Origin: Arthonia radiata
Lineage: Eukaryota > Ascomycota > Arthoniomycetes > Arthoniales > Arthoniaceae
Assembly: GCA_002989075.1 (NCBI GenBank)
Contig: PSQN01000003.1
Location: forward strand, 558,001-622,000
Length of the DNA: 64,000 bases
Direction of reading: 5' to 3'
Below, piece by piece: positions 411-51,000 of this stretch. Under the pieces are notes generated by a model. The model worked only from the letters and a program-made list of their open reading frames with translations. It was not told the DNA's origin and made no database searches. The position numbers were made by a program, and so were the translations under genes. Each line of letters starts with the position of its first letter. Positions within the stretch are counted from its first letter, which is position 1.

Positions 411-596
411 CAATCCCCCCTCTTCTAGTTAAATCGTCCTCGATTGACCCTCAGCCTTTCAAACACCTATAAGTTGCGTTTCGTCCCTCCTTTCGTGACT
501 AATCTGTAAGTCGCTATGCCTCGCATAAAGTCTGTTGCTGCGGGTCTTGATAAAAAGTACAGCTAATACCTGTTAATTGAAGCCTGCGGTATCGCG

Positions 597-6809: not shown

Positions 6810-7281
6810 TGTAACGCCGGTCGCTAGGAGGACCGAACTAAGGCTCACTTGCCTTGTGTGCTTATCGACCTTGATGGTGGGTGTCTCGTGTACTAGAGAC
6901 TAAAAGACAGGAGAGGCGAGACAGATTACAGAGGGTGAGAGGGGCTTGACTAAAGTAGACAGAAGGTAAAGCACGTTACCTAAATATAGTTAAGGAACTC
7001 GTATTCAGATATTAAGTTAACAGACTGAAGTCTATCCTAAGGTCGGCTATCAGTCTGGCTATATAATCTAAGGTACATAGGGAAGTTCCTCTGTGTCCGT
7101 TAATCTCGATAATGCTTATATCGGGTTTATAGAGAACGTAGGCTCTCAAAGCCGTCTTGTCCGATAATGCCTACGGCGGGTTTGTAGGCTTAGTCGGAAA
7201 TAATGCTGGTAGGGCTGAGATGACTGGCGGTGGTCGATGCTTGGGTGCACGCTAGGCCGTCTGGGGCTGGTGCCCGTAACA
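6810..7281 (-). repeat. 5' LTR of Gypsy copy A (472 bp)
   Basis: The LTR runs from TGTAACG to GTAACA (plus strand), with the TG...CA ends of retroviral-type LTRs. Gag starts 42 nt inside it on the minus strand. The sequence that follows at 7282 is integrase of another element, which fixes the boundary. Confidence 0.92.
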
Positions 7282-17830: not shown

Positions 17831-18123
17831 AATCGCGCGGTAGATGTTTAAGGGCTTGCATTAATTTTTTTAGAGTCCTTTGCTAATCCCTTTACCGCAG
17901 AGGAGTTTAAAACTCTACTAGAGCTCGATAAGGTTATTTAGCGCAAGCGTATAAAGACTGTTAAGGACGAAGTATCTGCTTTTGCAAACAACAAGCTATA
18001 CGTGTTTCTGGGTCAATAAATTCTTTAAGCAGGGCAATAAGAGCCTTTACATCGACCTTGCGCTCAAGTAATCTATACCAAGCTCTAGAAAATATTCGTG
18101 CACGTAGCAAATAGGGTCGAGAG

Positions 18124-18285
18124 TAGCCTTATTATATAACTAGCCTTATTATATAACTAGCCTTATTATATAACTAGCCTTATTATATAACTAGCCTTAT
18201 TATATAACTAGCCTTATTATATAACTAGCCTTATTGTATAACTAGCCTTATTGTATAACTAGCCTTATTATATAACTAGCTTTAT
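18124..18285. repeat. 17-bp tandem repeat, nine full copies
   Basis: The unit TAGCCTTATTATATAAC repeats head to tail from 18124 at exact 17-bp spacing for nine full copies, with a tenth partial copy. Copies seven and eight share one A-to-G difference; the others are identical. The uniformity inside otherwise heavily mutated DNA suggests recent expansion. Confidence 0.95.
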
Positions 18286-18619
18286 AAGTACCCTACATAA
18301 ACACTCTATTTACTTAGTAAGGCTACTTATAGTTAGGCTATCACTAGAGTGTTTATAGAGTGTTTCTATAAATAGGATGTTTCTATAGAGTATCTATATA
18401 GACAGATTGTTCTTATAAATAATCTGTTAGCTCTATTATATAGCCTTCTATAAAAACAGTCTTATATAAATATAGCCTCTCGGAGAGGGTATACGCCCTC
18501 TGTTTAAAAGGTGCAGGGAAGAAGAAGGATACTACTACAAAGAGTAGAAAGACGAGACCAGCTTAAGACTAGTACAATACTTAGGCTTAATACAGGTACA
18601 ATACTTAGTAGCAAGAAGA

Positions 18620-19454: not shown

Positions 19455-22400
19455 TTACAGCCGCAGATGGGCATTGTCTACGAAATGACTGCCTCCTGCG
19501 CATCTGTAACCATCTGCCTGTCTGATCCATCGGAAGCCCATGCAACACACGCCCATCTCGCGCAACTTTCTCTGCGCAACAGCTTCTTGCTTTCTCTCCT
19601 TCTCCTGCCTGTTCTTCTCCCTGCTTCTCTCCTGTTCGAGCCGCTCACGCTCCTGCAGCATCCGCTGACGCTGCAACCTCGCGGCTTCGAGCTCCCTGAG
19701 TCGGCGGCGGCGCGCTTCGGCCGCTTCCTCGTCCTCGGAGTCTGAATCGTTGAACGCATCGCCAACTCCCTTGTCCTTGGTGACGGCTTTCTCTTGTCTT
19801 CGGAACTCCTCGTCGGTGTGATGAAGAGCTTGCTCCACGTCGGCGTGTTTGACATTGAGAGCTTCGAGGGTCGCAGTATCGTCTCTCTGGCGCTGGGTGG
19901 CGGCCGCGATGTCTACTTGGAGGTGTCTCCACAAAGCATCCGAGACGCCATCATCGCGACTGTCAGAGGGTGAGTCGCCATCAAGAGATTTTTCCAGTGG
20001 AGACTCTTGGCTTTTTACAGTTGACGCGATGGTGGCTGGAGGCGGCGCGCTCATCAGGTCCTGGATCTGTGGTGGGGCAAGGACATTCTGAATGTCCAGA
20101 TCAGAGCGCTTTGCTCGGCTTTCGACCTTGAGACGCTGGTGAAGCTCCTTGTTTAGACAATCTAGAATTGCCATACGCGGTATAACGGACGCACTCTCAT
20201 CGGACGTATGCTCTCGCCCAAAGACGTGGCGCATTGCCTTCTTGCTGATGTTCTGTACATCGCGCGCGTTGCCCCAGAACTTGAGTTGGACCAAGCGCTC
20301 GAAGATTCTAGACGCCTCACGCGCTTCAGCAGACTGGCGGGCTTCTAAAGAAGGACACTTCAAGCCATTCTGCTGAAGCTGCTTGGCCAAGAGACCCATG
20401 CATTGCGTTGATGTAAGGGGTTCGAACGTTATAGTCTCAGGGAAGCGGCTGGCCAGGCCAGGATTCACAGAGATCAGCTCATCCATCTGGTCCTCATAGC
20501 CTGCAAGGACAACGACAAGCTTTCCCTTGAACTGAGGTTTGGTGAGAAGGTCTGTCAGCTCATCGATGGCCTCTGTTGCGAAATGGCCTTTACCAAGACG
20601 ATATGCTTCATCAACGAAAAGCACCTTACCGAGCGCTTTCTCCAGCTCTTTCCTAGTCTTGGGTCCGGTTTGACCCACGTACTGGCCGACGAGGTCTGAC
20701 GCTGAGCATTCCAGAACCTGGGCACGCTGAATCAGGCCCATGTCGTAGTATATCTGCCCAATCTTACGTGCCGTGCTAGTCTTTCCAGTTCCTGGCGGGC
20801 CTTTGAAGACAAAGTTGAACGGCACATGATCTTTGACATGATGCCCTGCAGCTTTGACATTGGCTGCGATGATCTGATATTCACGAAGCTTTGTGACGAG
20901 GGGTTCAAAGCCAACCGTATCCTTGAACAGCTCTGCAAGCCGTATGCCGGCTGATGTTGCTCTGGCGTGATCAGGATCGAAGTCACCCGGCCCCAGTTCA
21001 AACGTGCCGTAATCGCTGGGATTCACGCGTTTCTGCCAGTTCACTTTGGCCTTGCTGATGAGATTCTCGACTGCTCCGGCGTTGCCGAAGTTCATCATGT
21101 TTCGCTCCCGGGCCAGCAACCCCAGGGCTATTGCTTCACCTTCCGGTGTCGCCGTTAAGTCTTGATCCTTGAGCTTAAGCCTGAGTATGCGTTGCAGTTC
21201 CTCTTCGCTGAAGTCTTCAAATTGGAATGCGTCTTCGAGAGGAAATCTCCTGCTGAAGCCCGGATTTACTCGCTGGAACATTGCTTCCATCTGCGCTTCA
21301 TACCCAAGCAGCAATACGCAACGGTCATCGCCAGGGACATTGTGGACTTTTGAGACCATGGTGTCTAATACCGCTGTGCGGAAAGGGTCGGGTGCACCGT
21401 CGCTGCCCTCGGTGCCTGACGAAGAGCTGAGCATGTAAGCTTCGTCAATGATGAGGACCTTCCCTTTGGTAGCGTCAAGAATGCTGCTGGTCGCTTGCTC
21501 CGAGGCGCCTAAGACCGAACCAATGAAGTCTGTCGGGGTTTTGGAGACCACTACGGCAGACGGTCAGCATTTACTGCAGCAGTTCGTGTTGGACACAGAT
21601 CTGACAGAGCTTACCATCACCATTGCTCAGCAAACCGATGTCGGCAAGTAGACGGCCATAAAGCTTTGCGACGGACGTCTTCCCTGTTCCAGGTGAGCCT
21701 AAGAACACTTTGTTCAATGCGACCTGAATCGGCTCCTGCTCTTGCAGCTCTCTCTTGTAGTTGGTCTTGAGCAATGATACCAGTGTCTTGATGCTGTCTT
21801 TCACTTTTCGTAAGCCGATAAGACTATGTAGCTTCGCCCAAGCCGGACTCTGCAGCACTGCGGCGGAGGGTTCGGGTCCGATAAGGTCCTCTCTGCTGAA
21901 AAAGTAATCATCTGGACGCTGTCCGTTCCTTCGCTCCTCACCGATGCGACGAGCTTGTCGCGATCGAATGCGACTGAATAGATTCTCCAGATCCCGCATG
22001 TTGCCAAAGCCTTCTGTGTCACGCTGTCGTGACAGCCTTCTCGCCACGATGCGCGCGTAAAGGCCGTTCAAACCGCCTTCGACCTTCGCCTTTCCATCAT
22101 ATCGGTCTTTAAAAAGCTTATGAAGCATTATGATCAATTCTGCTTGAGAGTAGTCATGAAAGTCGAAAGTGTACGGGACGCGGCTTGGGACGCCAGGGTT
22201 GTGCCCAAAGAAGGCCTCCATTGGCTGCCTGTATCCTGCAAAGACAAAGACGATAGTGCCTCGGCGATTTTCGATCTCTTCAAGCAGGAAATTGAGGACT
22301 TGCTTGCCCCCTGCATTTATGCCGCTGGTCAGCTGGTATGCCTCATCGACAAACATAACGCCGCCACTTTTCTTGGCCAATGTCTTGATGTGCGTCTCCG

Positions 22401-25400
22401 CCTGCGGTACCCCATTAGTTGCAAGCCTGGAACCAGTGGTCTCCTCGAACGCGGCACCAGAGATGACATCTAGGGAGTGCAGAAGAGTCGCCCAGAGTCT
22501 GGCAACGGTTGTTTTCCCAGTGCCGGGGTTGCCAAGAAAGGCGACATGGAAACGTTCTCCCGCAATGTCAACACCCTGACGTTTCTGTATCTCAATCTGC
22601 CCTTTGATATCGAGGACGTGTTGCTTGACGTTCTCGAGCCCAACCATGTTCATGAGCGTGTCGATGGCTCCGTTTGACTGGCTCTCTACGGTCTTTTGAC
22701 GTGACCACTCCCGCTCTGCGGGAGAGGCTCTGCGCTCGTCTGAGACGGTGTCATTCGAACGTGGTGCAACCGTGTCCGAACGTGCTGTAGTATGCGATGT
22801 TCTGCTTTCGCTAGAGACTCTGGGGGTTTGGGGTTTGCGATCGAGGGACGGCTCATCTGCGACCTTTAAAGCAGCCTTGCGAGCCTCTTCAAACTCTTGA
22901 AGCTGTGTACGCGCCTGTCGCATATCCACCTGTTTGGTAGCAAGAGCCCTGCATCTATCGTCCTTGAGACGAGTGCCGGCCATTTCCTGTTGTATTAATG
23001 CAACTTCTTCATCCAGCGCATCTATTTCTTGGTCATGCCTCCTCTGATCTGCCTCGTTCTTTTGAGTCTGGTCCAGTCTAGCTTGCGCCCGCCTCTTGCG
23101 CTTGTCCTCTAACTTCTTGCAAGTAGCGCATCCAGACGTAGGCTTTGACTGGCATCGTGAAGTTCGCACGTGGCCCTGGGCACAGCTGCTCTTGATAACC
23201 TCAGCACAGGCAATCTTAGAGTGATCCACAAGGATATGGCATCGGGAAGGGCACTTGTGTTGACCACATGCCAGCATTTCAGGGCTGTATATTGGTTAGC
23301 CATTGAGCAGCCATGCAGAAATGAACTGGCTTACCAGGGCTGGGAGCACCCTCCATCAGGACACAAGTTCTGAAAGTCGTCGGAGTTCACAGCAATGCTC
23401 TTGACGTCTGGATGCGACTGGCATTGGATTGGGAGACCTTGGCAAAGGAATCCTTGCTCCTTGATATATTCCCTCAATGAAGCCCAGACCTGCCCTCCTT
23501 TCTTGGATGACGTGAATGTTGACAAATTTCCGATGACTATCAAGCCGTCTCTTGCACGAGATAGCAACACGTTGAGGCGCTCGGGTTGGGACATGAAGCC
23601 TATATCGCCGGTAGTATTGCTACGAGTCAGAGCTACAATAACAATCTTCCTCTCTTCACCTTGATAATTGTCTGCCAGAAGTCAGTCCTGTTGGCAGACG
23701 TGTGTGTCATCTAACGCACCGATAGAAGATATGTGTATCTGGCGGCCCTTAGGCGCCGACGCACTCGGACTCAACAGCCCAGCCTGATAGAGATCGTGAC
23801 TATCGAGATCATTGAGGACTGGATCGTTCTCTTCACTCAGCTTCTCTTGCAGTAATCGAAGCTGTCCCAGATAGGGTGTTAGCACAACCATATCATCGGA
23901 GCCATAACCCTGTTGCGCAAGGTATTTGACATAGCGCAAAGTGAGAGCTGCTTCGTGCGGGTTCTGCTTGGACACCCCAACATGCCGTTCCTGGACATTC
24001 TCGGGGAGTGATTCGGGTTCACGGTGGTCGATGAATGTCACATTTTGCCGCAATCCGCGAATAGATGGCCTATTCAAAACTGAGTCTGCGTCCTCAAGAT
24101 TCGGATAGGTCAAATGCCGGACGAGGCCAGCTATCTCGGGTCTCATGCGGTGCTGCTTGGAGAGAGAGATGTGAGGGAAGCCGTTTAAAATGAGCCTTTC
24201 AAACAACGAGCGGTTGAGATCATATCCGTCTCCCCTCTCGACAGTCAACGAGTACTTTGCAATTTTGGGACGCAGCTGCTTATGGTCGCCTATCATGACA
24301 AGCCTCTGGGTGCAAGCACTGATAGATGTCAGCACATGGGGCTCGAGTAGCTCACCAGCCTCTTCAAGCAGCACAGCTTCCGGACGCACTCGTCCCAGAA
24401 TGTCAGAGGACATTGCGGCATAAGTACTTGTGCACGCGATGATCCTCTTGGTGGCAGCGGTGTTAGCACTCTGCGTACGAAATTGATCTAGAGTGAATTG
24501 TTGGTGGTGATTGTACGACAAGCCAGCAGCCTTCAAATCATCAACGTGTTGTTGACGGATGCACTTCAGCCACGATGTGTGAATAGTATGTCGCGAACCC
24601 TGGGGCATTTGCCATACTTGGCTCATGTTGGGTGTCGACTGATGAGCAAAGGCACCTGCATCATTGTGGCCCTGCAGCCACCTGTCCAGCAAGTAACCTT
24701 CCTGAACAGCTTTGCCCTTTTTACCTACTGTGGTCATTCCATCAGATTCTGTGGGAACGCGAAGCGCGTCGTAGAAGCGGTCGTCATCTGAAAATTCGAG
24801 AAAATCGAAGACTTCTCGTGCGGACACGGGCGCAAATAACTTGCCAACAAGCTCACACATGTCGTCGCTAAGCTGCTTCATACGATTTCCAGCTTCGTTG
24901 ATTGCACGCCAGTCGGATTGTGAGAGCCTGGAAGAGTGTGGCTGGCGCCGTAGAAGCAGAGGCTCAGTCCTCGTGGAGGACTTGGACCCAAGTCGCACAA
25001 TAGAGTGACTAGGTATGCCGATATCCATCAGATCCTCTGTGAATTGATCTAGGGCATGATTAGTGTAGCAAATGACTAATGTGGTTCCTTCAAAATAATC
25101 ATGCAGTGCACGTGCAATTAGCGCACCAATGAATGACTTGCCAGTGCCTATGGTCTGTCAATGTCTGGGGGAATGCCGTGTAGTTCGCTCACGTACCCGG
25201 AGGTCCCTGAATGAGACTGACCGCATCGTTCAGCCCTGAAAGTAGAGCGGCACGCTGGGAAAGATCAAGCCGTAGCGACTTCCGAATTTTGAGCAAGTCT
25301 TGCAAGTCTTGGCCGCTGTTCGTATCGATCGCTGTCATTAATCGCCGAATCCGTTCATATGGTGGGGCGATGTGTAGGTCTTGTCCTATCCCGAGGAGAA

Positions 25401-26694
25401 GACTGCTAACAGGCAATAATGACACCCGCTGCAGCTTCTTAAGAAAAGGTTCGTAAGCGAAAACGGGTGTGTCTATCTGCAGGAGGTCGAAATTGGCGCC
25501 CGAGGCGGCAAGATCGAGCACAGTGTTAGAAGAGCCGTCAACTAAACGCAGGACGACTTCTGCTAAGTTGGAGCTCAGTCGATCGACATGCCGATTGACT
25601 AGACCGATACCGACGAAATCTCTACATACACAGATTGCAACAACAGCGCCATGTCGCATGATCTTGCTGCCTTGTCCGCGTGGATTGTTGAGAAAATCGG
25701 AACGAGCGGCCACGGTCATTCTCTCAAGACCTGGAAGAGGAGCAGGGCTTCTAAAACAAGCGGCCCATGGTTGTCGATGCCATGGCTTGACCTCTGGTAC
25801 ATTATCGCATTGAATACCAGAAAATGCCGTGGATAACATCATGATACTGCGCTGGCTTGGTTCGTTATTATAAGCACTCAGTAACTTTTCCTTGAAGTCG
25901 TGAACCATGTCTTCTCTGAGAAGTCGAAACATGTGGTCAGGATAGATGCGGCGTCGTTCGTCAAGATCGGCCGATTCGAAGACTTCAGCTGCTGTCCTCA
26001 AGAACGGAGGTTGAACGGATAAGATCTCGTCACGAGTCGGCATGAGCTGTATGTCCCGAATGGACTTAAAATCATTGTCGTGGCGGCCGCCTGGACCCAC
26101 TGCATCTGAGTGTGGCGCAGTTCCAACTGATCGGAGCGAAGCTTGATGTCTAATCAGATAGCCATAGGAGCGCACCTCGTGCGATTCGGAGGCCAGGAGG
26201 GTGTTGATGACTTCCGCGTCTCTGGCTTGCTCGACATACTGATCAATCTCGTCAGCGGTGAAGAGACGCAGAGTTTCAGACAGAAGCCAAGCCACACGAA
26301 GACTTGATTCTGCATTGAGAGCTCCTTGCTTGAGATGCTTGATGCAAGCGGACCAGAAGAAGCTTGTTTGAAGCAGGGCTCTGATTATCCGGCTCAAAAC
26401 ACTGCCAGAGTCGATTTCGGCAAGCGAGGGCTCTGATAACTTAGCCAGCAGCTGCGAAGCAGGACCCGCGATAAAGTCGACGGAGAGATCTTGACGAAAG
26501 CAGCGCTGTAGAGCCTCTAGACCCTTGGGCTGACAAAGTAGCTGATCTCCAAGCAAAGCAACGTCCTTTTGCGCGCATGCTGCCTCGATGAAGAGGTTTC
26601 CCGTACGGACAGAATTGATATCGGTCTTGCCGCGAAGAACGCTCGTAAAGAGGCGCTCGAGCCTCTTTTGGCGGTCATCAATTTCAGCAGACAT
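19455..26694 (-). CDS. ZNFX1-type RNA helicase fused to NFX1 zinc fingers and three SpoVK/CbbX AAA ATPase domains
   Basis: Five exons (26694-25197, 25147-23720, 23671-23335, 23284-21615, 21550-19455) join in phase to 7,029 nt, 2,342 aa; introns are 48-64 bp. The N-terminal 490 residues carry the ZNFX1-family 'GGRHDNDF' box. The superfamily 1 helicase core follows: Walker A GPPGTGKS (497-504, split by intron 1), 'EEAGE' Walker B, 'QHRMRPEIA', 'IDNYQGEE' (restored by intron 2) and 'RLNVLLSRAR'. Cys/His-rich NFX1-type fingers follow (about 1080-1150), then a coiled coil. Three AAA domains of CbbX/SpoVK type have Walker A lysines at about 1345, 1623 and 1901, each with a DEAY Walker B. The C terminus ends in a Cys pair and 'YRCAGGSHFV', conserved in this fungal family. 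ZNFX1 and Hrr1 relatives act in RNA silencing; a role here with the divergent Argonaute is inferred from position. The gene looks intact. Confidence 0.9.
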
Positions 26695-27435
26695 AGGACA
26701 GCAATGACATTGCAGTTCTGTCTATCGGCGTGGCTAATGAGGAACTTTCGTATACACCCTCAAATCATCCATGTAGGGCGAGCTATCGACCTTAAAAGCT
26801 CTCCTCGCTGATTGACCAAGCCTCGCAAACGGCGGGGAGGCCCATGACTATCCCACCCTGCAGCAGCCTGCATGTCAGAAATATACCTCATGCAGGTGAT
26901 ATGATGAACAATAACTATTCGATCGCTTGATGACTGCAGTTCCGTGGACGGGGAGACTATTGGGTGTTTTATCGGCGTGGGCGCAAGACATCCGTGGTGG
27001 CCTCATCCGGCAGCGTGATGGGTCTCTACCCATGGGGACCTGCATGGAAAACCAGAAACATAGAGTGACCAGAACCCGAAGAGGCGCTGTTTGCTGAGAT
27101 CCTGGACGCGCTGAGCGGAGGCCGATGATATCTACGTCAGCGTGCATAGCGCTGTGGGTTACCGTGCGCTATTCCCAATTGAGAGGTTTAATCTTCGGGC
27201 CATTTTGAAACTCTGAAATGAGCGCACAGCATCAATCAGACGCAAGGCAACCACCGCCAGTCCACACAATTTGCAGAACGAATCTTTTTTGCCGATAGAA
27301 TCTTTTTTGCCGATAGAAAGATGCGCCCGGCCATGGTCTATATTAAGGTAGCCAGCCGTCACGGCGGTCAGGTTGCCGACCCTCTTCCTTGCACTCGCAG
27401 ACTGATTTCGACCGGCGAACCCTGCTTTTACCATC
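26695..27435. promoter_or_regulatory. shared divergent promoter region of the helicase-ATPase and Argonaute genes
   Basis: These 741 bp separate two start codons facing away from each other, so they must hold both promoters. On the Argonaute side a TATATTA box lies at 27339-27345, about 90 nt before the ATG, and an 18-bp element is tandemly duplicated at 27281-27316. An upstream ATG at 27321 opens a frame that overlaps the Argonaute start out of frame; it would act as an upstream ORF only if transcription starts before it. No coding feature is supported here. Confidence 0.6.
27281..27316 (+). repeat. perfect 18-bp tandem duplication in the Argonaute promoter
   Basis: AATCTTTTTTGCCGATAG occurs twice back to back (27281-27298 and 27299-27316), 120 nt before the Argonaute ATG. 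It could be a repeated factor-binding site or a slippage product. Confidence 0.9.
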
Positions 27436-30400
27436 ATGTCCGCTCGAGGCAGAGGCTCTGGTGGTCGTGGAGCTCGAGGCAACCCTCGCGGTGGCGTCGG
27501 GACTTTAAGAGGGAGGGGTGGCTTTCAGACCAACCCGGAAGTGTTCCGGTGCGTCTCAACAGTCCTCCAAGAATGTCTCAGACAGCAGAATTAACAAACC
27601 TTGTCGCAGCCTGTCTGATGGAAATGTGCCGAGTGCCGACGATAGTGTCGGCACGTTGGAGTCCAAGCTTGTTCCAACATCAAGTGGAACAGCTTTGGAC
27701 GTCGCTCAACTGTCACTCAGCTCAGACGGCCCTTTTCGCCCTGGCTATGGCACTCGTGGCGAAATGGTCGTACTTTGGACGAACTATTTCCAAATTCTTC
27801 CTCAGCCTGACGTCTCACTGTTTCGCTACGCCGTTGACATCTCTCCGGAAGTCCAAAACCGCAGGCTCAGAGCGCGCATCATCAAGTTGCTGCTCGAGGA
27901 TAGCCCGGTGTCCAATCTTGCTCCGGGGATAGCTTCAGACTATCAAGCCAACATTATCACCACAACTGCGTTGACAGCCGACCAGAGATACACCAACATT
28001 CGCTATCGGGACGAAGGCGAGAGCACTGCACCATCGAACGCCAGACAATATCGACTTCGTCTCCAGGAGACAGGTAGCTTTGTCGTTGCGGACCTGATCG
28101 ACTATCTGACCTCTATTAATGCAAGTGCCGCCTTTGCCGAGAAGGCGGGAGTTATACAAGCACTCAACATTGTTTTGAACAACCTGCCAAAAACCAAAGA
28201 TCCCAGATCCGCCTTGTCTACCCGCAGAAATGTTCACTTCACCGTTACTGGTTCGTCCGCGGAGGGATTCAATCTTGGCGCAGGGCTCGAGGCCTGGCGA
28301 GGGTACTTCACGAGTGTTCGCACCGCGGCTGCGCGGCTGCTCGTCAACGTTCAAATTAAACACGCTGCTATGTACAAGGCTATTCGGCTTGACGAGCTGA
28401 TGAATGAATTCATCCAGGAGCATGGAAAGGAACACTTCAGGATGAACCAATTCCTCAGCCGCGTGCGCGTTGATCGGCTCCACCTTAAGGCATCCAATGG
28501 CCGTCGCACTGTCCGTCCCAAGATCATTCACGGTCTTGCAACGCCCTATGATGGTCGAAGACTTCCAAAGCCTCCAAAGGTCCCATTAACCGGTGCTACA
28601 GCCAAACAAGTTCAATTCTATATCGGTGATCCAGCCCCTCCACCACTGCGGTCCAACACTTACGTCACGGTGTTCGACTACATCAGTAAAGGTACAAGTA
28701 ACCACATGATTGGACCTTTAGCACGTCGAGTTGACTTCTGTAAAAGTTCACAAGACTTCAGCCAATGCTGCGCTTCCTGTCGTCAATGTTGGCACGAAAG
28801 AGCAGCCCAGCTATCTGCCACCAGAGGTGTGCTTGGTAGTGTCAGCACAGCCGGCGGTAACAAAGCTAAGCCCAGATCAGACAGCTCAAATGATACGTTT
28901 TGCTGTACGCAAGCCATTTGAGAATGCACGATCGATCACGGACACCGGGCTCGCTGATGTTGGACTTGCCACTGTGAATCCCGTCATGGTCAGCCCTCGA
29001 CCTATATGACTTGTATGCCAGTATGCCTATGCTGACTATAACAGACGGCTTTCGGCCTCCAAGTCCAGCCTAGTATGCTTGCGGTCAAGGGACGAATACT
29101 GCCAACTCCTGGAATGCGTTACGCCGGGAACAAAGTTAGCCAACCAAGATTCGGAGCCTGGAACATGGGCAACTTGGCCTTCTCCAAGGGTGCTTCCCTT
29201 CAGAAATGGTCAATCCTATGGCTGCGCAGTCGCTCTATGAGAGATCCATGGAATGGTGACCGCGAGGCTCTAGTATCGACGATGAAAGACTTCCACAAGA
29301 CACTGAACGATTGCGGAATGCGATGTTCTCCTCCGATGCTGCCGGGCAAAGATGCCGAAGTTGATGCTGGACATGATGAGCTGGCTATCGAGGCTGCCTT
29401 TCAACAGCTTCTCGCTCGAAACCGCCAGGAGACACTTTTGCTGGTCATCATTCCTCGGCGTGACGATCGTTTGTACAATTTCATCAAGCAATGTGGTGAC
29501 GTTCGCTTTGGTATTCACACAGTCTGCGTAGTCGCAAGCAAGTTTGCGAAGCCCAACAATGTCCAGTATTTCGCCAATGTTGCCCTGAAGTTCAACCTCA
29601 AACTGGGCGGGACGAACCAAACCCTCGACGCTACGAAATTAGGTCTCATTGCTAGAGGGACTGCTATGATAGTTGGAATCGATGTAACGCATCCTTCTCC
29701 GGGCTCTGTCAATAGCGCGCCTAGCGTTGCTGCGATGGTTGCCAGCATCAGCAAAGATCTGGGACAATTTCCAGCAGTTTTGAACGCACAGAGGAGTCGT
29801 CAGGAGATGGTGAGTGATTTGAGCGACATGCTCAAGTCTCGCTTGCGCCTATGGCAAAAGCACAACCAGAACCAGCTGCCTCAATTCATTCTGGTGTACC
29901 GAGACGGCGTTTCTGAAAGCCAATACCATATCGTCTTGGACAAAGAGTTGCCACTTCTCCGTCAAGCTTGTGATCAGCTCTACCCAGCCAATACAAAGCG
30001 TCCGGCTATTTCCATCGTCATCGTTGGAAAGCGCCATAGCACTCGATTTTACCCTACGTCCACCGACAAAGACAGGATCGATGAGCGATCCTCTAACCCA
30101 AAACATGGCACGGTGGTCGACCGCGGCATTACCGAGCCTCGCAACTGGGACTTTTACTTGCAAGCCCACACTGCAATTCAAGGCACGGCGCGACCGGCTC
30201 ACTACTTCGTCATCCACGACGAGATCTTTAGGCGCTTGGCGATCCCACCTGGATTCGCACATGCCAGCGACGTGCTGGAAGATCTGACTCACAACCTGTG
30301 CTACATGTTTGGTCGAGCGACAAAGGCTGTCAGCTATTGTCCACCGGCGTACTATGCTGATATGGTGTGCGAGCGCGGAAGGTGCTACTTAAGTCATCTC

Positions 30401-30514
30401 TTCTCACCAACAACATCGAGCGCCGGAAGTGCCACGGCAGGTAGCTCGACTCCTGAAGAGCCTACTTCTGTGCACCTGCATGATGCTATCAAAGACAGCA
30501 TGTTCTATATCTAG
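27436..30514 (+). CDS. ago: Argonaute
   Basis: Four exons (27436-27548, 27589-28691, 28747-28988, 29045-30514) join in phase to 2,928 nt, 975 aa. The start gives an Arg/Gly-rich tail (MSARGRGSGGRGARG), common in Argonautes. The N domain shows 'RPGYGTRGEMVVLW'; the linker shows 'GFNLGAGLEAWRGYF'; PAZ, linker 2 with 'LPPEVCLVV', and MID follow. The PIWI domain carries D699 ('GIDVTHPSPG'), E740 ('SRQEMVSDL'), D773 ('YRDGVSESQ') and D925 ('PPAYYADMV'). This D-E-D-D set should allow slicing; many animal and plant Argonautes have His at the fourth position. The protein ends in the usual 'DSMFYI'. Intron 1 is only 40 bp, and intron 3 has a weak donor (GTCAGC) but restores 'NPVM-TAFGLQVQPS', so I trust it. 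It is divergent from the helicase-ATPase gene and 431 bp upstream of Dicer on the same strand. The product binds small RNAs and guides silencing. Confidence 0.94.
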
Positions 30515-30945
30515 AGTGTCCTTGTGCGAACGAAGTTACTGGGGGCGGGTCAGCCGAAGATGGTCATGTAGTGTGACAACAGAAGATCGACGTGTCTTGA
30601 ACTAGTCACAGAGTACTGTACAATTCCAGATTGACCGCCGCGTGAAACACAGCACTCATCTATTCGAGCACTGAATAGAATGGCGCATGAAATCCCTTGT
30701 TTGGACGTAATCTTAGATATACCCAGTCCTTCATGCCGAGATTGAACGCTGAGCAGCGATGCTCGAACTCTTCTGCCTCGTTTGTGGTGTTGAGCTAATG
30801 CAGTGAGACAAGTGATAACCCCGCGCCGCGTCGTTTGCAATGATCTTCTGCGAATATATTTTTATGCTATCCTCGTGTCTTCATATCTTCGTTAAAATCT
30901 CAGCAGCAGACGCTAGGATCCGTACGACAAGACTTGCAAGTGTCG
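30515..30945 (+). promoter_or_regulatory. Argonaute-Dicer intergenic region
   Basis: These 431 bp must hold the Argonaute 3' end and the Dicer promoter. An AT-rich stretch (TATATTTTTATGC) lies at about 30.86 kb, near the expected core-promoter distance from the Dicer ATG. Separate promoters are likely, though read-through cannot be excluded. No other coding feature is seen. Confidence 0.4.
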
Positions 30946-33900
30946 ATGCACGCAAACATGGCGTCTGATGAAATGATGGTGGGGCCGCCTGATCTTGTCC
31001 CCACGCCACTCAAGTTGAGGTCATACCAACATGAGATGTTTGAGCGAAGCTTGGAAAGGAACACCATTGTTGTGGTATGCCTTACTTTGGCGTTTTGGGA
31101 AACCGCCGCTGACGCTGGCATCAGATGGAAACAGGCAGTGGAAAGACGCCAGTGTATGCTCCGTTTATCGTTGCGCGCGATATTTCGTTAACAAGACTGC
31201 TTTCTAGGGCCATACACAGAATCATACATGCGGTCGAGACGTGCAGGGACGATCAAGTGCGCCCATGTCAAAACGTGTTCATTTCCCCTTCACCACCTGA
31301 CGAGACACAGTTGGTATGGTTCCTGACTGAGGGTGTCGCGCTTTGTCGACAACAGCGTGAATCTGTGCAACGAGCATGCCCTGCGATCAGATCAACAATC
31401 ATTGTTGGAGACGATGGGCCGGAGCTGTGGGGTTCACAAGCTACGTGGACAGAAGTCCTTACAAACGTCGACGTCGTCTTCTCCACCTTTGAAGTTTTGC
31501 ATCAAGCTCTCGCACATGCATACATTCGGATGGAGCGCCTCCGACTGCTCATTTTCGATGAAGGTATGTCGAGTTGCTGTCTTGGCAACAACGAGGCTGA
31601 GCAATCCCTAGCACATCATGTAACAAAAGATCACCCGTCCAACAAGATTATGCGAAAGTACCACGAAACGCTCCGCTCGCAGGCCAGTGAAGCTCGTCTG
31701 CCATCTATCCTCGGTCTTACGGCAAGCCCTGCAGAAAACGGGAGGTTGAAACGGCTACTGTGTGTCGGAGTGGCCCCTGCGTCATTGCAAAAGCGCTGAC
31801 GTTGTCCAGTGACCTTGAAGCCAACCTCGCGGCAACTTGTCAATCCCCTCGCCGGCATAGGCTCGAAATGCGAGACTTTGTCCATCGACCGACGCTTGAA
31901 AGACTGGCATATTGTCAGTCCAATGACGGCGCTTTTACTGGTGGCGACGTATCAGCGCGGCAACTTGATAGAATTCCTATGGAGAAACACGGGGAAGCTA
32001 TGAAGAAATTGCAGAGCAAAGTTCAATATCTTGCTGAAGAGTTGGGCTGGTGGGCAGCATTGAGCTTCGTCACCGACCTTGTTGATGCGCTGCGAGGCAA
32101 GGTAACCCGTCAAGCCTTGCTAGGTGAGGTGCTGTCAAAGGGCATCAAGAGCAGCATGCTAGCTTGTGTGAAGCCTCTTCTGTGTAGTGTGAAGCGGATG
32201 CATGAGGCGCAAGCGCAGAAGTGTGGCACTTCCACACACGTATCGACAAAGTTTCGATGTCTGATCAATCGACTTCAAGGCCTTCTCAAGGATCGAGGAG
32301 AAGGCTTTCATGGCATCGTCTTTGTGCGACAGCGTGTAGCTACAGTTATGCTCGAGAAACTGCTGCAGACCGAGTTCGGCACATCTGACGACCTTCGGTG
32401 CGGTTCATTCGTGGGTGAGTCTAATTCTTGCTCGTATGGTACTAACTTGAGCGAGCTCGTCGTGCCTAGAACTCAAAGCACAGTTTTGAAACAGTTTAGA
32501 GAGCGGGAGAAGAATCTCATCGTCGCTACTGATGCACTCGACGAGGGCATTGATGTTGCTGCTTGCAACAGTATCATCTGTTTTGATCCGCCGCAGAACC
32601 TCCGCTCCTTTATTCAAAAAAGAGGGCGGGCCCGTGAGAAGGATTCGACTTATGTTATCATGGTGCCACATGATGCCACAGGTTTGTCCCCCAGAAAATT
32701 TGAGGATGCCGAGCTTCTCATGTCCGAGATGATCGCAAGTGAGAACGAGAAGATACGCCGAGCCTGTAAAATAGAGTCCATCAAGGAGAAAGTTGAATAT
32801 GAACTTGCAAGTCCTATCGGGTAAGTCTTGCCTCGATGACGGTTACTGCCTCGTACTCATAGCTACTAGAGCTCGTCTTACTGCTGACATGACATGTGCT
32901 CATCTTGAACACTTCTGCGCCAAGCTTCCTAAGGCGCCGTACACCGATACCAGGCCGACCTTCCGTTGCCTAGAAGATGAAGATGGTTTGACGCGTGCTG
33001 AGGTCCAGCTTCCCATGTCGGTACCTTCAGCCGCTCGCGTCGCCCACAGTCTGAAGGGTTGGAAGACCGAAAAGGCTGCCATCATGGATGCTGCCTTCCA
33101 AGCTTACAAGGGGCTGTTTGATTACGGTCTGCTGACAGACCATCTCCTGCCATTTGACAACGGCCCTGAGATTGACGACGATTTTCAGCGGAAGCGAGTC
33201 GACTTCTATCATCTTGGTGGCCGCTTATGTGTCTGGGAGCAGGCGCCTTCCAACTCGCATGTTACAGAGTATTTCCGCACTACAGTGACAATGGGTAACA
33301 CTGTGACGGGATGGGTAGGTCAGCAGCTTGCACTCTGGACGTACACAGATCTATCGCCCATTGGAAGCTTCTCCTTGTACGCCGAAGAAGATCAGGAAAC
33401 TCGCGTTGAGTGTCAATCACCGGTTCGTGTTCTTGTTGATTCTGACAAGACTGCGCATGCTCTGGATTTGTGCACGCGGACGTTGATATCGGCATGTCGG
33501 TCGAGATCCGTACCAGACGATGAGAAATTTGCGGTCTTCGTCACACCTGACCTTGCCCTCGACGAGCTCCCACGGTGGGTGGAGAGATATCAAGGGCAAT
33601 TGTCTGCAAGAAGCTGGCTTGAGGGTGCAAGCTACACAAGTCCAGGAGTCATTGTCAATGCCGCCCTCGGGAACTCCCTTCACGTCTATCGAGGCCTCCG
33701 TCAGTACCAAGATGAAGATGGAAATGATACTGTTGAGGTTGAATGCGCACCTTTTCCAAGGCGTCGCAACTTCTTGAAGGTGAGGCTGAGTCACCACGCT
33801 ATCCTCGAACATGAGATCGTAGAGCAAGAGGACCATGAGGAGCAAACAGTGTTGTTCGATGTGGATGACTGCTTCGTTCGACGCCTTCCTTTGGACTACG

Positions 33901-35384
33901 CCTGGACGATGAGATACCTTCCCAGCATTTTCCATCATCTAGAGATGACCCTGACGGGATACTGCTTGATGCTACAAGCCTTACCGGAAAATCGTTTCCG
34001 AAGCCTCTCCGAGGTAGTCCGCTCAATTACGTCTCCGTCAACCATGCTCAAAAAAAACTACGAGCGATTGGAGTTCTTGGGTGATAGTCTGCTGAAATAT
34101 CATGCTTCCCAACAGCTCTTTTGTGACTATCCGACCTGGCACGAGGGATATTTGACCCGCGAACGGAACACCATCATTGCCAACATATCTCTTGCCAATG
34201 CAGCGGTTGACAAGGGCTTGGACACGTTCATTCTCAAAGACGCCTTCGTGGGCAAAGACTGGACGCTCCCGACGGAGGCGACAGTGAGCAAGCAGCGAAA
34301 CAGCGTGCGTCACTTACCGATGAAGACCGTAGCAGATGTCGTCGAGTCTCTCATCGGCGTCGCATTTCTGGGTGACGGCATGCGCGGGGCTGCTCGGTGC
34401 ATGGCTACCGTGTTGCCAAAAGTTCGAGATCAGAAAGCAGACTTTGGAATCATTGTCGCAAGCAGTGGAGTGCCGAATACGGCTCTCGGAACATCCAACA
34501 GGCTTGTCGACCAAGCGGAATCGCTAGTCGGCTATCGCTTCCGGAGCAAAAACCTATTACTGGAGGCTTTGACCCATCCTTCCTGCACGAGAGACGTAGT
34601 CACGGAACCATACCAGCGGCTCGAGTTCCTTGGGGACGCCGTCCTAGACGTTCTCGTTGTCACTCAGCTGTTCCAGCTCCTCCCACAAGCTTCACAATCC
34701 CTGATGACCAAGATCAAAGCAGCACTTGTCAATGCCGACCTCCTAGCCTTCTTGAACTACTCTTTAAAGAAGAGCACAGAAGGTGTCTCGGTTGCAGCAA
34801 ACAGACATGACGGAGTTCGGCGCTCTGAGGTGCATCATGAGCTCGCCTTGTGGATGCTAATGAGGTACGAAAGCGAGGATGTGGCCAAAGCGCGCGAAGA
34901 AAGTCTGCAAATTTTTCAAGCCGTGCGCAGAACGATCACGGCCAGCTTCGACGCGAGAACTTATCCGTGGGTAGAGCTCTGCCAACTGCGCGCACCGAAA
35001 TTCGTGTCGGACATCATTGAGAGTGTACTCGGCGCAATGTTTGTCGACGGCGATGGCGAGCTGGATGCGTGCCAAGGATTTCTGGAAAGAATCGGCCTCA
35101 TGCGTTATCTTCGTCGCTTAGTCAGCGAGAGCATTGACGTCATCCACCCTCAAGAGCGTCTCAATCGGCTGCTGCATGGCCGCACGTTGGTTCACTCCTA
35201 TCACGCGAGTTCAGCGGATTCGGCCTTGTGGGACTTGTATCTGTTTGCTGGAGATGAGATGCTGGCACAAGTGCAGGCGTGCGCCTCCAAGGATGAAGCA
35301 AACATCATGGCAGCTTCGAAGGCGTGCAGCCTTCTCACGGGTACGCTGAGTGGAGCAAAACAGTCACTGCATGAACACCCATGA
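30946..35384 (+). CDS. dcl: Dicer-like RNase III helicase (DCL2-like)
   Basis: Five exons (30946-31074, 31125-31563, 31612-31744, 31810-32820, 32870-35384) join in phase to 4,227 nt, 1,408 aa, usual for fungal DCL2. The helicase has Walker A METGSGKT (44-51), DEAH at 188-191 (restored only by removing the 48-bp intron 2), 'LGLTASP', 'VATDALDEGIDVAAC' and 'QKRGRARE'. A Dicer-dimerisation region follows ('LEHFCAKLP'). RNase IIIa has 'ERLEFLGDSLL' (about 970) and 'ADVVESLIG'; RNase IIIb has 'RLEFLGDAVLD' (about 1154) and 'SDIIESVLG' (about 1287). All eight acidic residues are present, so it should cut dsRNA. No PAZ or clear C-terminal dsRNA-binding domain is seen. Intron 3 (31745-31809) needs a GTTGAA donor but gives the expected 'LEANLAATC' continuation; a frameshift is the alternative. 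ATG 30958 is a second possible start. Confidence 0.92.
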
Positions 35385-35647
35385 TTTCGGGTAGATGCAT
35401 CTTCGGAACGTCGAATACATTCATCGATTTGCATCCAATCGCGCCAAGGCATAGCCTTGCGTCGCTGTCCGCTACCTCATTGGCTCGATGCTCCATCCCT
35501 GTGACGCTCAGCTGCCTGCAAGTATCCATCCCCTCAGAGCGACGCGAAAGCCTTAGAAGAACGTCGAAGGTAGCACTTTTATGATCAGACGGTCGTGCCC
35601 CGCGCAAGCTGGGAAGTGTTTGTTGTCCTCTGCGTGCGTCCACGAGA

Positions 35648-37530
35648 ATGAGCGGCCCATTGGACACTACTAGCATCAGTCAGGTCAACGACATCTGGCA
35701 GCAGAACATACAATGCGTAAGGCAGACGATTGACAGGCCACAGACGGCGGAGGACCTCATTGTTGAGGCGCTGACATCGGCTCATCGCGCACAATCTAAC
35801 GACTACGCGAGCAACGGCAACCGGGAGCTTGCCGGCTTTGGTCAGACAGCGCTTGGAGCATGCATTCAATTTGGTCGCAACAGTGGGAGAACAGAATTCA
35901 GCAGTAAGTTGCTCGTCCATCTGAACTGCTACCACCGGTCTCATCCGCGCTAGAGCAAGCACGACACGAGGGTTCTTGGGCAAAGTTAGGAACCCATCAA
36001 GGACTTCTTCAAATTGCGTCTCGCTCACCTATGCGACATTGTCTGGTCCCAAGCATTCGGCAACACAATGCTTCAAGCTCATCGCCGGCCTCAAAAAAGG
36101 TCGTGGCGTACGTTTTTCGCAGCCTCATTGGAGCTGTCTACCTGGATTCAGGTCGCGATCGAGAAGCTACCTCTCATGCATTGAATGCACTGTGCCGCTT
36201 TCTTGACTCTGCACAGCCACCTGACCAAGGATCGCGGTTGCCATCCTCCATCTCGTCATCATCCGGCCACGGAAGTGGCACGAATCCTGAAGAGCTTACG
36301 CTTGAGGCGCAGGGCTCAGCGGCCTTCGAAATGGACCTTGCGTTTGATTCAGAATTTTGGAGTCAGGTGGCTTCGGAAATCTCACTCGACTACGTAGACG
36401 TAGATTTTCCATGGGGCGCACCATCTCCGAGCTGTCTTCAACCGCAGTCACATTCCGGTCAAGATCCGTTAGACGCTGATTCAACTCGTCACCAACTTGC
36501 AGGCACAGACTGTAGCCAGCAGATCCCCAATGCCAGGACATTGGGCTGCGCTTCAGATGTATTGCTTGAGGATTCTGGCTTTGGTATGCAAAAGCTCAGT
36601 CTAGCACATGCTGCTGAGGGCAAACAGAAAAGCTTCGTGGTCACTCCTCCTCAAGCAATCGAAGCACCGGCAGAGCCATGCCATATGCTATCCTGTTCAT
36701 CGCCAATCAACCCGACGCCAACGCCGTCCATAACGACACCGCCTGCGTCGACAACGGAGAGTCACCCAAAGAAGCCGAGAGCGACCAGACCACGCTACAG
36801 AAACCACCAGAGACTTGATGACTATGTCAGCAGTCAATTGCGACGGGCCAAAAATACTTGGCCAGTCTCTCCAGTTGACGGTTCGCAGATACTGCCAACC
36901 ATCCATCAAAGCTTCATCCGACCAAGCAAGACCCAGAGATTCCAGGTCACCATGCGAAAGCTCCACCTCGGCACGGCGAGCAGCTTCGTTATCAGGGTTA
37001 TCAAGACCGCCATTTGTGCACGTAGATCTGCTACGCTTTCGAAAAAGGATGTTCAGTCTCACAGCCCGTCGCATACGAGCTATCACTTCCTTGAAGTCGT
37101 CAGGCTACGGGTCCAACGCGCGCAAAATAGCATTGAAGCCCTGTATCATACTTATGAGCTCTACAGAAGCCTTATTGAGGGCGCTGCGTCTGAGCTCGCC
37201 GACGGGTTTGTCCACAGCGACCAGCAAGAACTCGCTCACGCCACGGCGTCTAAGAAACGGAAAAGGTCCGGCAACCCCCTCAAAGCAAGAACCACCAAGC
37301 TGTACAATGACATGATCGCCGCGCTTGAGCCTGACTTCGATCGTAAAACAGAGGAAGAACAGGCATACCTGAAACGCGATGTTGAAAAGCTACGACTGCT
37401 TGGTGTGCGCTTAGACGCGCTGGTGAGGCGATTTGGCCGTGGTGTTCTCTGTCTGATACCCTTTTCTAATAGCGTTGTTGATTCCGAATCAGCTGTTGCC
37501 ATAACAGAAGCAGAGTCAGTGTTCTTATGA
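35648..37530 (+). CDS. RNase III-fold protein with substituted active site (pseudo-RNase III)
   Basis: Two exons (35648-35903, 35954-37530) joined over a 50-bp intron give 610 aa. The N-terminal 165 residues look like an RNase III domain. 'NRELAGFGQTALGACI' (58-73) stands where the signature normally reads like 'NERLEFLGDAVL', and 'VVAYVFRSLIGAVYLDSG' (135-152) where a helix like 'ADTFEALIGAIYLDSG' is usual. The four metal-binding acids map to A62, Q66, Y138 and R141, so cleavage is very unlikely. Next come a low-complexity region (about 170-420) and a helical, basic C-terminal part with a 'KKRKRSG' nuclear-localisation-like run. The gene starts 263 bp after Dicer on the same strand. A dsRNA-binding or scaffold role beside Dicer is inferred from the fold and position. 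An alternative 3' splice (donor 37521, acceptor 37565) would extend the product to 683 aa ending at 37794. Confidence 0.75.
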
Positions 37531-43123: not shown

Positions 43124-43650
43124 TTATCCGCGCCTCTTCGCAGAATCCAGGGCAGTACGAAGGAGCTTGAACAACTCGTGTGCTTTCGCTTGAGTGGAGG
43201 TCATGTCCTCACATGCCATATACTTGTCCGGGTGCAACCATGTCGTCATGCGTCTTGCAGCTGCCATCTCTGTCTCTGAAAGACTGCCCATGTACTCGTA
43301 GAAATTGCACCTGCACTCAGGAGGCTCGATATGACACCGATAGCAGTAATCAAAAGAAGGATCTAGCAAGCTCTTGTTGCGTTTTGTCGCCCTCTGAACA
43401 TCTTCTGCCCACTTTTGTAATCTTAGTTTTCGAGCAAGCCTCTGATTTGGCTGAGCTTTCCGGACGTCTGCTTCCATTTATTGCTGCTGCTGCTGCTCTC
43501 GCTGATATCGCTCTTCTTTATACTATCGTCGCCGCTGCTCTTCTCGCTGCACATGTAGCAAGCCTTCCCTTTCTGCCTTTCGTTGGAGCTTGACCTGTCG
43601 CTGCTACCGCCTGTGAGCCCTTAAGCGCTCTACGCCGCACGTTAAGGCCG
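43124..43650 (-). pseudogene. J-domain-like coiled-coil protein, 5' part broken by stops
   Basis: From the Met at 43477 the frame gives 117 aa. It has a basic helix, a Cys cluster 'CYRCHIEPPECRC', then 'RRMTTWLHPDKYMA' and 'AKAHELFKLLRTALDSAKRR', which resemble the HPD loop and last helices of a J domain. Upstream in the same frame, to about 43650, lies a charged Gln/Arg/Glu-rich coiled coil with three inner stops (TAG, TAG, TAA), each at a place where Gln (CAG or CAA) fits. All three match RIP-type C-to-T change at CpA. The intact part might still be expressed as a short protein. It is the last recognisable island gene before the AT-rich flank begins. Confidence 0.5.
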
Positions 43651-47475: not shown

Positions 47476-47589
47476 TTGTATTAGAGGCACGTATCCTTAA
47501 CTTTTACTAGTTCTTGTTTACTTACTTATAAGCTGTTTATAGCGAGCAACAATAAAGAGCTACTTAGTAATATAGTCTCTAACTTTAAT

Positions 47590-48038
47590 TGTAACGCCGG
47601 TCGCTGGGAGAACCGAACTAAGGCTCACTTACCTTATATGCTTATCGACCTTAGTAGTAGTTATCTTGTGTACTAAAGACTAAAAGGCAGAAGAGGCGAG
47701 ATAGATTATAGAAGGTAAGAGGGGCTTAACTAAAGTAGACAGAAGATAAAGTATGTTACTTAAATATAGTTAAGAAACTTATATTTAAATGTTAAGTTAA
47801 TAAACTAAAGTTAACTCTAAGATCGGCTATTAGTCTAGCTATATAGTTTAAGGTATAAAGGTATATTCTCTGTATTTAATAGTCTTAACAATCTCTTTGT
47901 CGCGTAGTCGGAATTCTATTGCGATATAGCGACGTTGCTAATATCGCTATATCGAAGTTATCGGGTATACTGTATAATATTTTAATAAGGCTGGCTGCGC
48001 TCAGCTCTATACTAGCTAAACATAGTAAGATTGTAATA
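47590..48038 (-). repeat. 3' LTR of Gypsy copy B (449 bp)
   Basis: It starts TGTAACGCCGG and ends GTAATA, where copy A ends GTAACA. It pairs with 54430-54878 at equal length. Confidence 0.9.
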
Positions 48039-51000
48039 TAAGATCTCCTCTTTAAGACTAGTCGTCCTTAACGGCTCTAGAAACATTAAAACTTCGTTGT
48101 TGCTCTATAATAGATTTAATTCTATAAGTCGTTATATTTAAAGTTAAGAAGGCTTCTAACGCTAATAAAGCGCTTAAGATTAATATTGTTCTTACTAAAG
48201 TTTATAGTCGAGAGATGCCTCTGTGTTTCCGTTGCTCTTATCTAGATAAGAAGTATATTCTAAAGTTTAGAAAGGTATCGTATTTTGTGTATATTTGCGA
48301 TAAGAAGTTGTATAACGTTTGCTTATCGTTAGAGAATGGTTAGTTTTTATCCTACGTTCGTTTCCTTTAGGTTAGTGTTAACTTATTTTAGCTTAGAGTA
48401 TCCGTTCTCAGTACTTACAGGTGTTGGATGCCCTCTAGGGGCAACGTAAGTGTTTAATAGAAGAAAAGGAAGTCGTTCGTACGGCGAAAAGATCGTACGA
48501 AGCTATTAAAGTGGCGATTGTAGATTTAGAGAAGAAGCTTAAAAGATTACGCGTTTAGACGCAGAGTAAAATAGATTAGAATAATATATTATTCGAGAAA
48601 GAATGGCTAGCGGCTATGTTCGATAGTAATATTATAGATATATCGAATAGTTTAAGTATAGACTTGCATAATAATCTGTATCTAGAGTTAGGTAGTAGGC
48701 TACTAATATAGTAGACTAGTTTGTTTATAGATAACCTAGGTGTCGGTATAGTATACTAGATAGTAGATTAGAGTGTTAGTACTGCTACAACTAATTAACC
48801 TTCTAGTTTCAATATTATTAAATAGTGTCTTTATAGTTAGTTAGGTTTCGTTCTAGTTCCTATTAATTTTTATGTTTAAAATATCCTTTCTATTTTATAA
48901 GATACTGTTGTTTGCCTCGATGTTGTTTATAAGCTTAAATCGTTTTAACCTTATACTTAGGTTCTTAATTATTAAAAAGGATTTCTAAGTTGGATTGTTC
49001 TACTCTTCGAGAGTAGGCTAGTTTTAACAGCGCTATATAGAATATAGAGTGTATTCTTATTGTCTTTAGGAGTTTACGTTTAAATATTACGGGTCCTAAT
49101 TACTATAAGATTTTAAACGGTTTTGTTTTAATATAGTTAAGTTTCTTACTTAGTCTGATAGTCTTTATATTTCTTATAAGTAAGTAAGCTCTTTCCCCCT
49201 CTTTTATGCTTGTATTTAGGGTAGTTTTTAACTTATTATATTATTTTCTTGTTTGTTCGTTAATAAACTTGCTGTCTAACTTTAACTATTAGTATAGAGT
49301 TTTTATGCTTGTAGCTATTTGTATAGCTAATTCGTTTTCTGTGTTGTTCTGTAATTGTCTTCTTTAAAGAGGGTAATAGCTATATAAGGTATAAAACAGA
49401 GTTATTTTACTTATATTATTCTTTGTATTATTGTACGCGGCTTACGCTACTAATAATAATTGTATCTAGTCGTTTTACTAGTAGTTAATGTATACTCAGA
49501 GATACTGTTCTAGTGTTTAATTTGTTCGTTCCGTTTGTTTGTCTGTCTGCAGATAGAACGACGTAGACATTTTCTATTTTGTTTCTAGTTATTGTATTAG
49601 AGATATTTAAAACTGTAAGACGAATTTTTTGTCTCTGTCTAAGATAATTCTTTGTAGTTAACTATAGTTTGCTAGAATAATCCGAAGGAATATATATACT
49701 AATTGTTCTAAATTGTTAGCTTTCTTGTAAGATACAAAGTACGCGTACTTTATTAGTTTATCGTATATAACAAGGATAGCGTTGTAAGCTACTTCTATAA
49801 GTAGATCCTTAGATATTAGTAGCTTAGTAATAAAGTCTAGTAAGACTATATACTATAGCCTCTTAGATATTTTTAGTGGCTGTAGTTTACCGTATAGTAA
49901 ATGTTTTGGGTGCTTTGTTCTTGCGTATATATTGTATTCTCGAATATAATTCTCGACGTAGTGTTGGATTCTTAGGATATAGTAGGTTCTTATAATCTTT
50001 TCTATAGTATTGTCGATGCTCTTGTGTCCCTTTGTTGGGTTATTATAAAAGTTATCGATAATATATTAGATTAGATTCCTTAGGATATAGATTTTATCTT
50101 AAAATTTGTAATATTTCTTGTTGTTCTTTATTAGCCCTTAGTGTCGTTTCTTGTTTTTCTAGTAGGTTTTAGAGTCGTTTAAGATGTCTGGAATTTGGTT
50201 GTCTAGTTTAATAACAAACTTAGTTATTATAGCTAATTAATTGTATCTAATCTCGTTATTGTATTCTTAGAATATTGCGTGCTCGACGTGTTCCTTGTTG
50301 TTAAGGTAATTGGAACGTCGGCTTAGAGCATCGGCTCTATTGTTCTCGAAACTCTTCTTGTAGGTAATAATAAAGTTGTATAAAGCTATAGTTTTTAACT
50401 ATCTAACTTGTCTGCAGTTAAGTTTCTTTATCGTTATAAAGTAAGTTAGGTTCTTATAGTCTATATATACTATAATTGTATAGTTTGCTTCTTTTAAGTA
50501 AGCTCGCTATATTTTGAATGCTGCTATAATAGCTAAAAGCTCTTTATTGTAAATGTTATAGTTCTGTTCTGTAAGTAATATTTTTTTTAAGTAGAAAGCT
50601 ACTAATCTAAGCTTTCTTCCTTTATTATTCTATCTTATATATACTTTAATTGTATAGTCTAACGCGTCTATTTTTATAATAATCGGTAGGTTAGAGTTAA
50701 ATATTACTAATACGGGCTCAATCTTAAAAGCTTCTTTAAGCCCTTTAAATACTAATTGTTCTTTCTATGTCTAGAAAAATTCTATCAATTATTTTGTCTG
50801 TTAAGACAGCGGTGCTGTAATTCGACTAAAGTTGGATATTTATTGCCTGTAGTAGTTAGCAAAACTAAAAAACTGCTGCAATTATTTTATATTCTTTAGT
50901 GTAGACTAGATTAGAACGGATTAAATCTTCGAATCTTTTATTTAGAGACCGTACTCGATAATTATAAATCTAAGAAATTCGACAGATTGTTAATAAAACT

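Follow-up and report, generated by a model that had tools for sequence, protein, structure and literature searches.

A putative Argonaute–Dicer gene cluster with two candidate silencing partners in an AT-rich block of a fungal genome

Fungal RNA-silencing genes are usually scattered, and the question raised by the locus described here is whether four adjacent genes, including those for a predicted Argonaute and a predicted Dicer, are partners in silencing or neighbours by accident. The window, which is the whole stretch of 64,000 nucleotides that was analysed, corresponds to C9:558001-622000, that is, part of contig C9 in a fungal assembly of 33.5 Mb in 16 contigs, and positions given below without a contig name are those of the window. 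The cluster occupies 19455-37530 on a single unbroken contig. Its four genes are all intact in phase-keeping models, and the first is transcribed away from the three that follow; the modelled coding regions are separated by gaps of 741, 431 and 263 bp. In our view there is about an even chance that this is a lineage-specific physical cluster that holds a dicer-slicer pair of fungal RNA silencing together with two candidate partners. Its features, with protein lengths in amino acids (aa), are as follows.

26694-19455, minus strand: helicase/AAA+ gene of the fungal NFX1/SpoVK family, 2,327 aa; exons 26694-25197, 25147-23765, 23671-23335, 23284-21615 and 21550-19455
26695-27435, no strand: stretch of 741 bp separating the start codons of the divergent helicase and Argonaute genes, limits taken from the model ends
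27436-30514, plus strand: predicted QDE-2-type Argonaute, 965 aa, 4 exons; 27436-27548, 27610-28697, 28762-28988 and 29045-30514
30946-35384, plus strand: predicted Dicer, 1,377 aa, 7 exons; 30946-31074, 31125-31153, 31208-31256, 31311-31563, 31612-31759, 31810-32820 and 32870-35384
35648-37530, plus strand: RNase III-like protein, predicted to be without catalytic residues, 610 aa, 2 exons; 35648-35903 and 35954-37530

The Argonaute matches the Pfam models ArgoN, L1, L2 and Piwi (3e-72) above cut-off and PAZ (18.6 of 28.8 bits) and Mid (18.2 of 27.5 bits) below it, and the domains follow the order ArgoN, L1, PAZ, L2, Mid, Piwi. Its best solved relative, over the C-terminal part, is QDE-2 of Neurospora, and in an alignment beside QDE-2 the D, E, D and H are present at the positions expected for the slicer tetrad. 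The closest relative among the matches listed (best 120 of 273) is a protein of Bathelium mastoideum (Trypetheliales, Dothideomycetes) at 63 % identity, followed at lower identity by proteins of lichen fungi and others, and three of the relatives listed carry the name Qde2. A quick tree was built from 46 rows, namely 42 of the best 120 matches and the four Argonautes found in this genome. Only the clustered one of these four joins the 42 outside relatives (support 98 for these 43 rows), in a tree where the outside rows had been retrieved with the clustered protein itself, QDE-2 is not among the rows, and the three other Argonautes of the genome are long-branched and of unsure placement. The clustered and Bathelium proteins are sisters, with their position among the deeper groups open. 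On this comparison the predicted protein falls among the QDE-2-type Argonautes, as the sole one of the four to do so.

The Dicer matches DEAD, Helicase_C, Dicer_dimer and two Ribonuclease_3 stretches in Pfam. It has the motifs METGSGKT and DEAHH, and both RNase III domains keep their acidic motifs; four of the six introns in its model were placed by hand from conserved motifs. It is one of two two-domain Dicers found in the genome, shares 25-35 % identity with the other over the pieces that could be aligned, and may be of the DCL-2 type. A combined Dicer-helicase query returned no Dicer among the best 120 of 1,551 matches, all of these being of the helicase kind.

The RNase III-like protein matches PF14622 (Ribonucleas_3_3) over residues 36-154 (5.2e-6) at 27.1 bits, below the cut-off of 35. 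When aligned with five RNase III domains from the same genome, the E, E and D of the first signature are replaced by R, A and Q, the first E itself varying in two of the five, and the D and E of the second signature are replaced by Y and R relative to four of the five, the fifth domain being cut short in the alignment. With its acidic catalytic signature replaced, the protein is, as judged from sequence, a dead RNase III. The one relative found, P0001, is a 435-aa frame on a 49-kb contig, and it matches only the region behind the RNase III domain, at 58-59 % identity. An RNase III-domain protein outside the Dicers, Rde3, is required for RNA interference (RNAi) in Cryptococcus, where it is described as likely to cleave double-stranded RNA (dsRNA), according to excerpts of PMC6643885; in contrast, the clustered protein is without the acidic signature and is tied to RNAi by position only.

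These results bear out much of the initial annotation, which had listed four adjoining genes, the first divergent and all with exon models in phase, between limits (19455 and 37530) that coincide with the ends of the first and last of our rebuilt models. Its Argonaute is in an intact frame with Argonaute domains, slicer residues and a place among QDE-2-type proteins in the quick tree, its Dicer, also in an intact frame, combines a helicase, a dimerisation domain and two RNase III domains that keep their acidic residues, and its pseudo-RNase III keeps neither the E-E-D nor the D-E signature residues. The fourth assignment, a ZNFX1/SpoVK helicase, was half right. The SpoVK part stands, as the protein contains three AAA and two AAA_lid_6 stretches in addition to AAA_11 and AAA_12, i.e. 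a superfamily 1 (SF1) helicase core (Walker A at residue 497) and three SpoVK-type AAA domains (Walker A motifs at 1324, 1602 and 1880), and in a profile search, where counts are lower bounds, AAA_lid_6 was found in no other protein of the genome. The ZNFX1 part does not stand: neither the RZ-type zinc finger PF20173, the mark of ZNFX1, nor a CCCH finger is among the 22 Pfam families of the clustered helicase, and no NF-X1 finger model passed. Both fingers (RZ at 5e-23) accompany a helicase in a protein encoded on contig C15, and it is therefore the C15 protein that fits ZNFX1, the clustered helicase being ruled out as ZNFX1 itself. It shares with ZNFX1 and with Hrr1, the S. pombe orthologue of ZNFX-1 in an excerpt of PMC9276528, an SF1 core of the AAA_11/AAA_12 kind, but differs from them in having three extra SpoVK-type AAA domains and no listed RZ or CCCH finger.

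The clustered helicase instead belongs with proteins whose row names read NFX1-type zinc finger or stage V sporulation protein K, the source of the family name used here. Many Ascomycota and Basidiomycota are represented among the best 120 of 1,551 matches, most of which share the same Pfam accessions, and many rows are near 2,300 aa in length. The closest relative among these is P0122 from Bathelium mastoideum, with 58 % identity over 1,827 columns. A 32-row tree (30 of the best 120 matches, the clustered protein and the C15 protein) pairs the clustered protein with that of Bathelium. It differs from the rest of the family in that its gene lies divergently beside an Argonaute gene and in its deep place in the tree, beside Bathelium only.

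Across the genome, where all counts are lower bounds, at least four Argonaute loci were found, on C14, C9, C12 and C2 (the C2 locus in two pieces), together with two-domain Dicers on C9 and C12, a single-domain RNase III gene on C4, a weak RNase III match on C13 and at least four loci for RNA-dependent RNA polymerases (RdRPs). Viral contigs searched with the last exon of the Argonaute for further loci gave no match. Outside the cluster, no Argonaute, Dicer or RdRP was found within 30 kb of another, as judged by the coordinates of the loci found. The counts equal the four Argonautes, two Dicers and four RdRPs given for Cryphonectria in excerpts of PMC4890784. The clustered pair is of the same protein kinds, with catalytic motifs intact, as the QDE-2/AGO2 and Dicer of antiviral or quelling RNAi in Pezizomycotina (Neurospora, Cryphonectria), but here the two genes adjoin and share a locus with genes for a helicase and a dead RNase III-like protein. 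The initial annotation knew of no described cluster with this content, and a literature search found none.

One rival explanation is that these are ordinary orthologues joined by rearrangement, accidental neighbours that are not co-regulated and of which only the Argonaute and the Dicer share a pathway, as they do elsewhere. We regard this as possible but somewhat doubtful. In 200,000 uniform random placements of four Argonautes, two Dicers and three ZNFX1-like helicases, 1.4 % of draws had an Argonaute and a Dicer no more than 30 kb apart, and 5.5e-5 had one of the helicases within that distance as well, for a gene set that was picked post hoc. The packing of the cluster is thus unlikely under uniform chance, and this counts against accident, as does the finding that four genes, three of them with Argonaute or RNase III domains, are adjacent, with only one other firm gene nearby. 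On the other side, the helicase and the Argonaute belong to widespread families and have their ordinary architecture, and the surroundings of the cluster are repeat-rich, so that rearrangement would be easy. These surroundings, and the one further gene, which was not part of the initial annotation, are as follows.

39431-38069, minus strand: fifth gene, 432 aa, 2 exons (39431-39185 and 39120-38069), converging on the cluster
18900-43500, no strand: island of normal composition in an AT-rich block that resembles the product of repeat-induced point mutation (RIP), edges set by eye from 2-kb bins

The island is about 24 kb long, is nearly filled by the five genes and lies within a RIP-like block that extends over 120 kb or more. 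Its 2-kb bins have a GC content of 0.48-0.55 and a TpA/ApT ratio of 0.48-0.63 (0.95 in the last bin), whereas bins of C9 538-662 kb outside it have a GC content of 0.16-0.45 and a TpA/ApT ratio of 1.1-2.2, as is typical of RIP (one of these bins consists entirely of N, and about 4.8 kb of this block is N). Modelling of 39.4-45.5 kb and 17.5-19.4 kb yielded only short, weakly scoring frames, and hence the island has no firm gene beyond these five. The fifth gene, which is 538 bp from the RNase III-like gene, stop to stop, encodes a product with no Pfam match and a predicted structure (mean pLDDT 33) that is not usable, and it has a paralogue elsewhere on C9, at 2,233 kb (53 % and 42 % identity in two pieces). 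By eye, its GDL, ELKT and WLTQTPYFVLAF stretches recall the DXO/RAI1 RNA-end nucleases; profile searches gave this idea no support, as all matches to solved structures had E values of 1 or worse and none was to DXO or RAI1. A 17-bp tandem array (18090-18319) was seen at the left edge of the island. A 117-aa frame without a Pfam match (43124-43477, minus strand) includes an HPDK stretch resembling a J domain.

The setting suggests two further explanations. Silencing genes in a heterochromatic, perhaps pericentromeric, block might be subject to feedback from small interfering RNAs (siRNAs) and heterochromatin, so that the arrangement would be linked to chromatin, a proposal that we consider improbable. 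It gains from the extent of the RIP-like block, which covers C9 538-662 kb or more and includes bins with a GC content as low as 0.16. It also gains from a comparison with 14 other 10-kb stretches sampled around RNAi-related genes, 12 of which have normal GC content throughout (of the two exceptions, that beside the C15 helicase extends into AT-rich sequence, and the other, on C5, starts with N and AT-rich sequence). The outer limits of the block, however, rest on single 250-bp samples, which were RIP-like at 520 kb of C9 and normal at 500, 680, 700 and 740 kb. Mobile elements can carry defence genes, and the cluster might be cargo of an element such as a Starship that had collected them. RIP-like repeats do lie on both sides, and LTR-like repeats spaced 6.87 kb apart (1-7171) and 6.84 kb apart (47584-54791) mark two copies of one element flanking the island. 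However, none of the 18 matches in the genome to DUF3435, the Starship captain domain, lies at C9 538-662 kb (about 4.8 kb of which is N), the nearest on C9, at 1,569 kb, contains stops, and no inverted repeat pair of at least 60 nt was found in the window. Starship cargo is thus unsupported, and we rate mobile carriage of any such kind as very improbable.

In favour of a lineage-specific cluster around a dicer-slicer pair are the intact Argonaute with its slicer residues and the intact Dicer, the nearest relatives among the matches listed of both the Argonaute (63 %) and the helicase (58 %), which are from Bathelium and at similar distance, the retention in another assembly of the RNase III-like protein's C-terminal part, and an island that contains few other genes and is unmutated inside a RIP-like block. 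The wider proposal of the initial annotation, a silencing module, survives in so far as real genes with intact frames lie close together here and include one of the two Dicers found and, of the four Argonautes found, the only one that groups with QDE-2-type proteins in the quick tree, and it loses its argument from ZNFX1.

Several observations weigh against the cluster reading. For the initial annotation, conserved linkage would have supported a module; deep conservation of the helicase-Argonaute linkage was contradicted by a rough test in which draft contigs were compared by size, with one helicase row per species, for species with both proteins among the matches listed. The helicase and the Argonaute were on contigs of unequal size in all six comparable distant species, a result that also favours accidental neighbours. 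These were Aspergillus pseudoustus, A. oleicola, A. karnatakaensis and A. cavernicola, with single-member rows, and Leptodontidium sp. MPI-SDFR-AT-0119 and Stemphylium lycopersici, with a multi-member row for one or both proteins, for which the size is that of the longest contig; Bathelium was set aside since its two rows are from different assemblies (M1821 and M1822). Hence, the helicase-Argonaute linkage does not look ancient. The helicase tree likewise gives no sign of simple descent, since there the pair with Bathelium sits in an open set together with rows from basidiomycetes and leotiomycetes. Comparison of five intergenic stretches gave no 11-base word common to any two, the four RdRP loci found are all on contigs other than that of the cluster, and the RZ-finger helicase is likewise encoded elsewhere. 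In excerpts of PMC6694225 the two Dicers of Sclerotinia overlap, it being the double mutant that is debilitated, and in excerpts of PMC4890784 the antiviral Dicer of Colletotrichum is named DCL1, though it is the homologue of Cryphonectria dcl2; the label of a Dicer therefore does not give its function.

If the cluster is nonetheless a silencing locus, its proteins may act together, be co-regulated and target viruses or transposons. The Dicer would cut dsRNA from these, and the QDE-2-type Argonaute would load the siRNAs and slice the targets; in Sclerotinia, agl-2, named QDE-2/AGO-2, is antiviral according to excerpts of PMC6694225. The helicase and the RNase III-like protein are silencing candidates by position. 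The former, whose gene and that of the Argonaute have a common upstream stretch, would act by remodelling the RNA-protein complexes of targets or viruses. The latter would not cut but would either bind dsRNA or form a pair with the Dicer. As meiotic silencing is known in a dothideomycete (excerpt of PMC10512333), a role in the sexual phase is possible too. A stronger version, in which the locus would be a self-contained antiviral RNAi island of dicer, slicer, RNA-remodelling helicase/AAA+ protein and a non-catalytic RNase III partner adjusting or directing the Dicer, selected together in one lineage with its nearest kin in the Trypetheliales and placed in heterochromatin so that silencing controls its own genes, appears unlikely.

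Four other loci drew attention during the survey of the genome. At C5:1538.8-1544.1 kb (L039 3766-6488 and 7263-9067), an RdRP gene and an SF1 helicase gene are modelled about 0.8 kb apart on the same strand; the fission yeast helicase Hrr1 works with an RdRP, as stated in an excerpt of PMC9276528. The Argonaute at C2:334.0-336.9 kb (L035 2496-5408) has a glycine at the expected third slicer aspartate (GYRGGVSDGQ) and is perhaps without slicer activity. That at C12:76-80 kb (L034 4439-8122) includes an RGG-rich insert before the Piwi core, where the model may hide an intron. At C5:1304-1309 kb (L046 3635-8209), a ZNFX1-like helicase frame is followed by frames that by eye resemble a nucleoside phosphorylase and TPR repeats, and this model may join two genes.

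The locus names two new candidate silencing factors, an NFX1/SpoVK helicase/AAA+ protein and a dead RNase III-like protein. The former belongs to a widespread family for which a literature search found no role in RNAi or other silencing, which also counts against the cluster reading. RNAi has been lost more than once in fungi, and a dicer-slicer pair at a single locus could be lost or transferred in one step.

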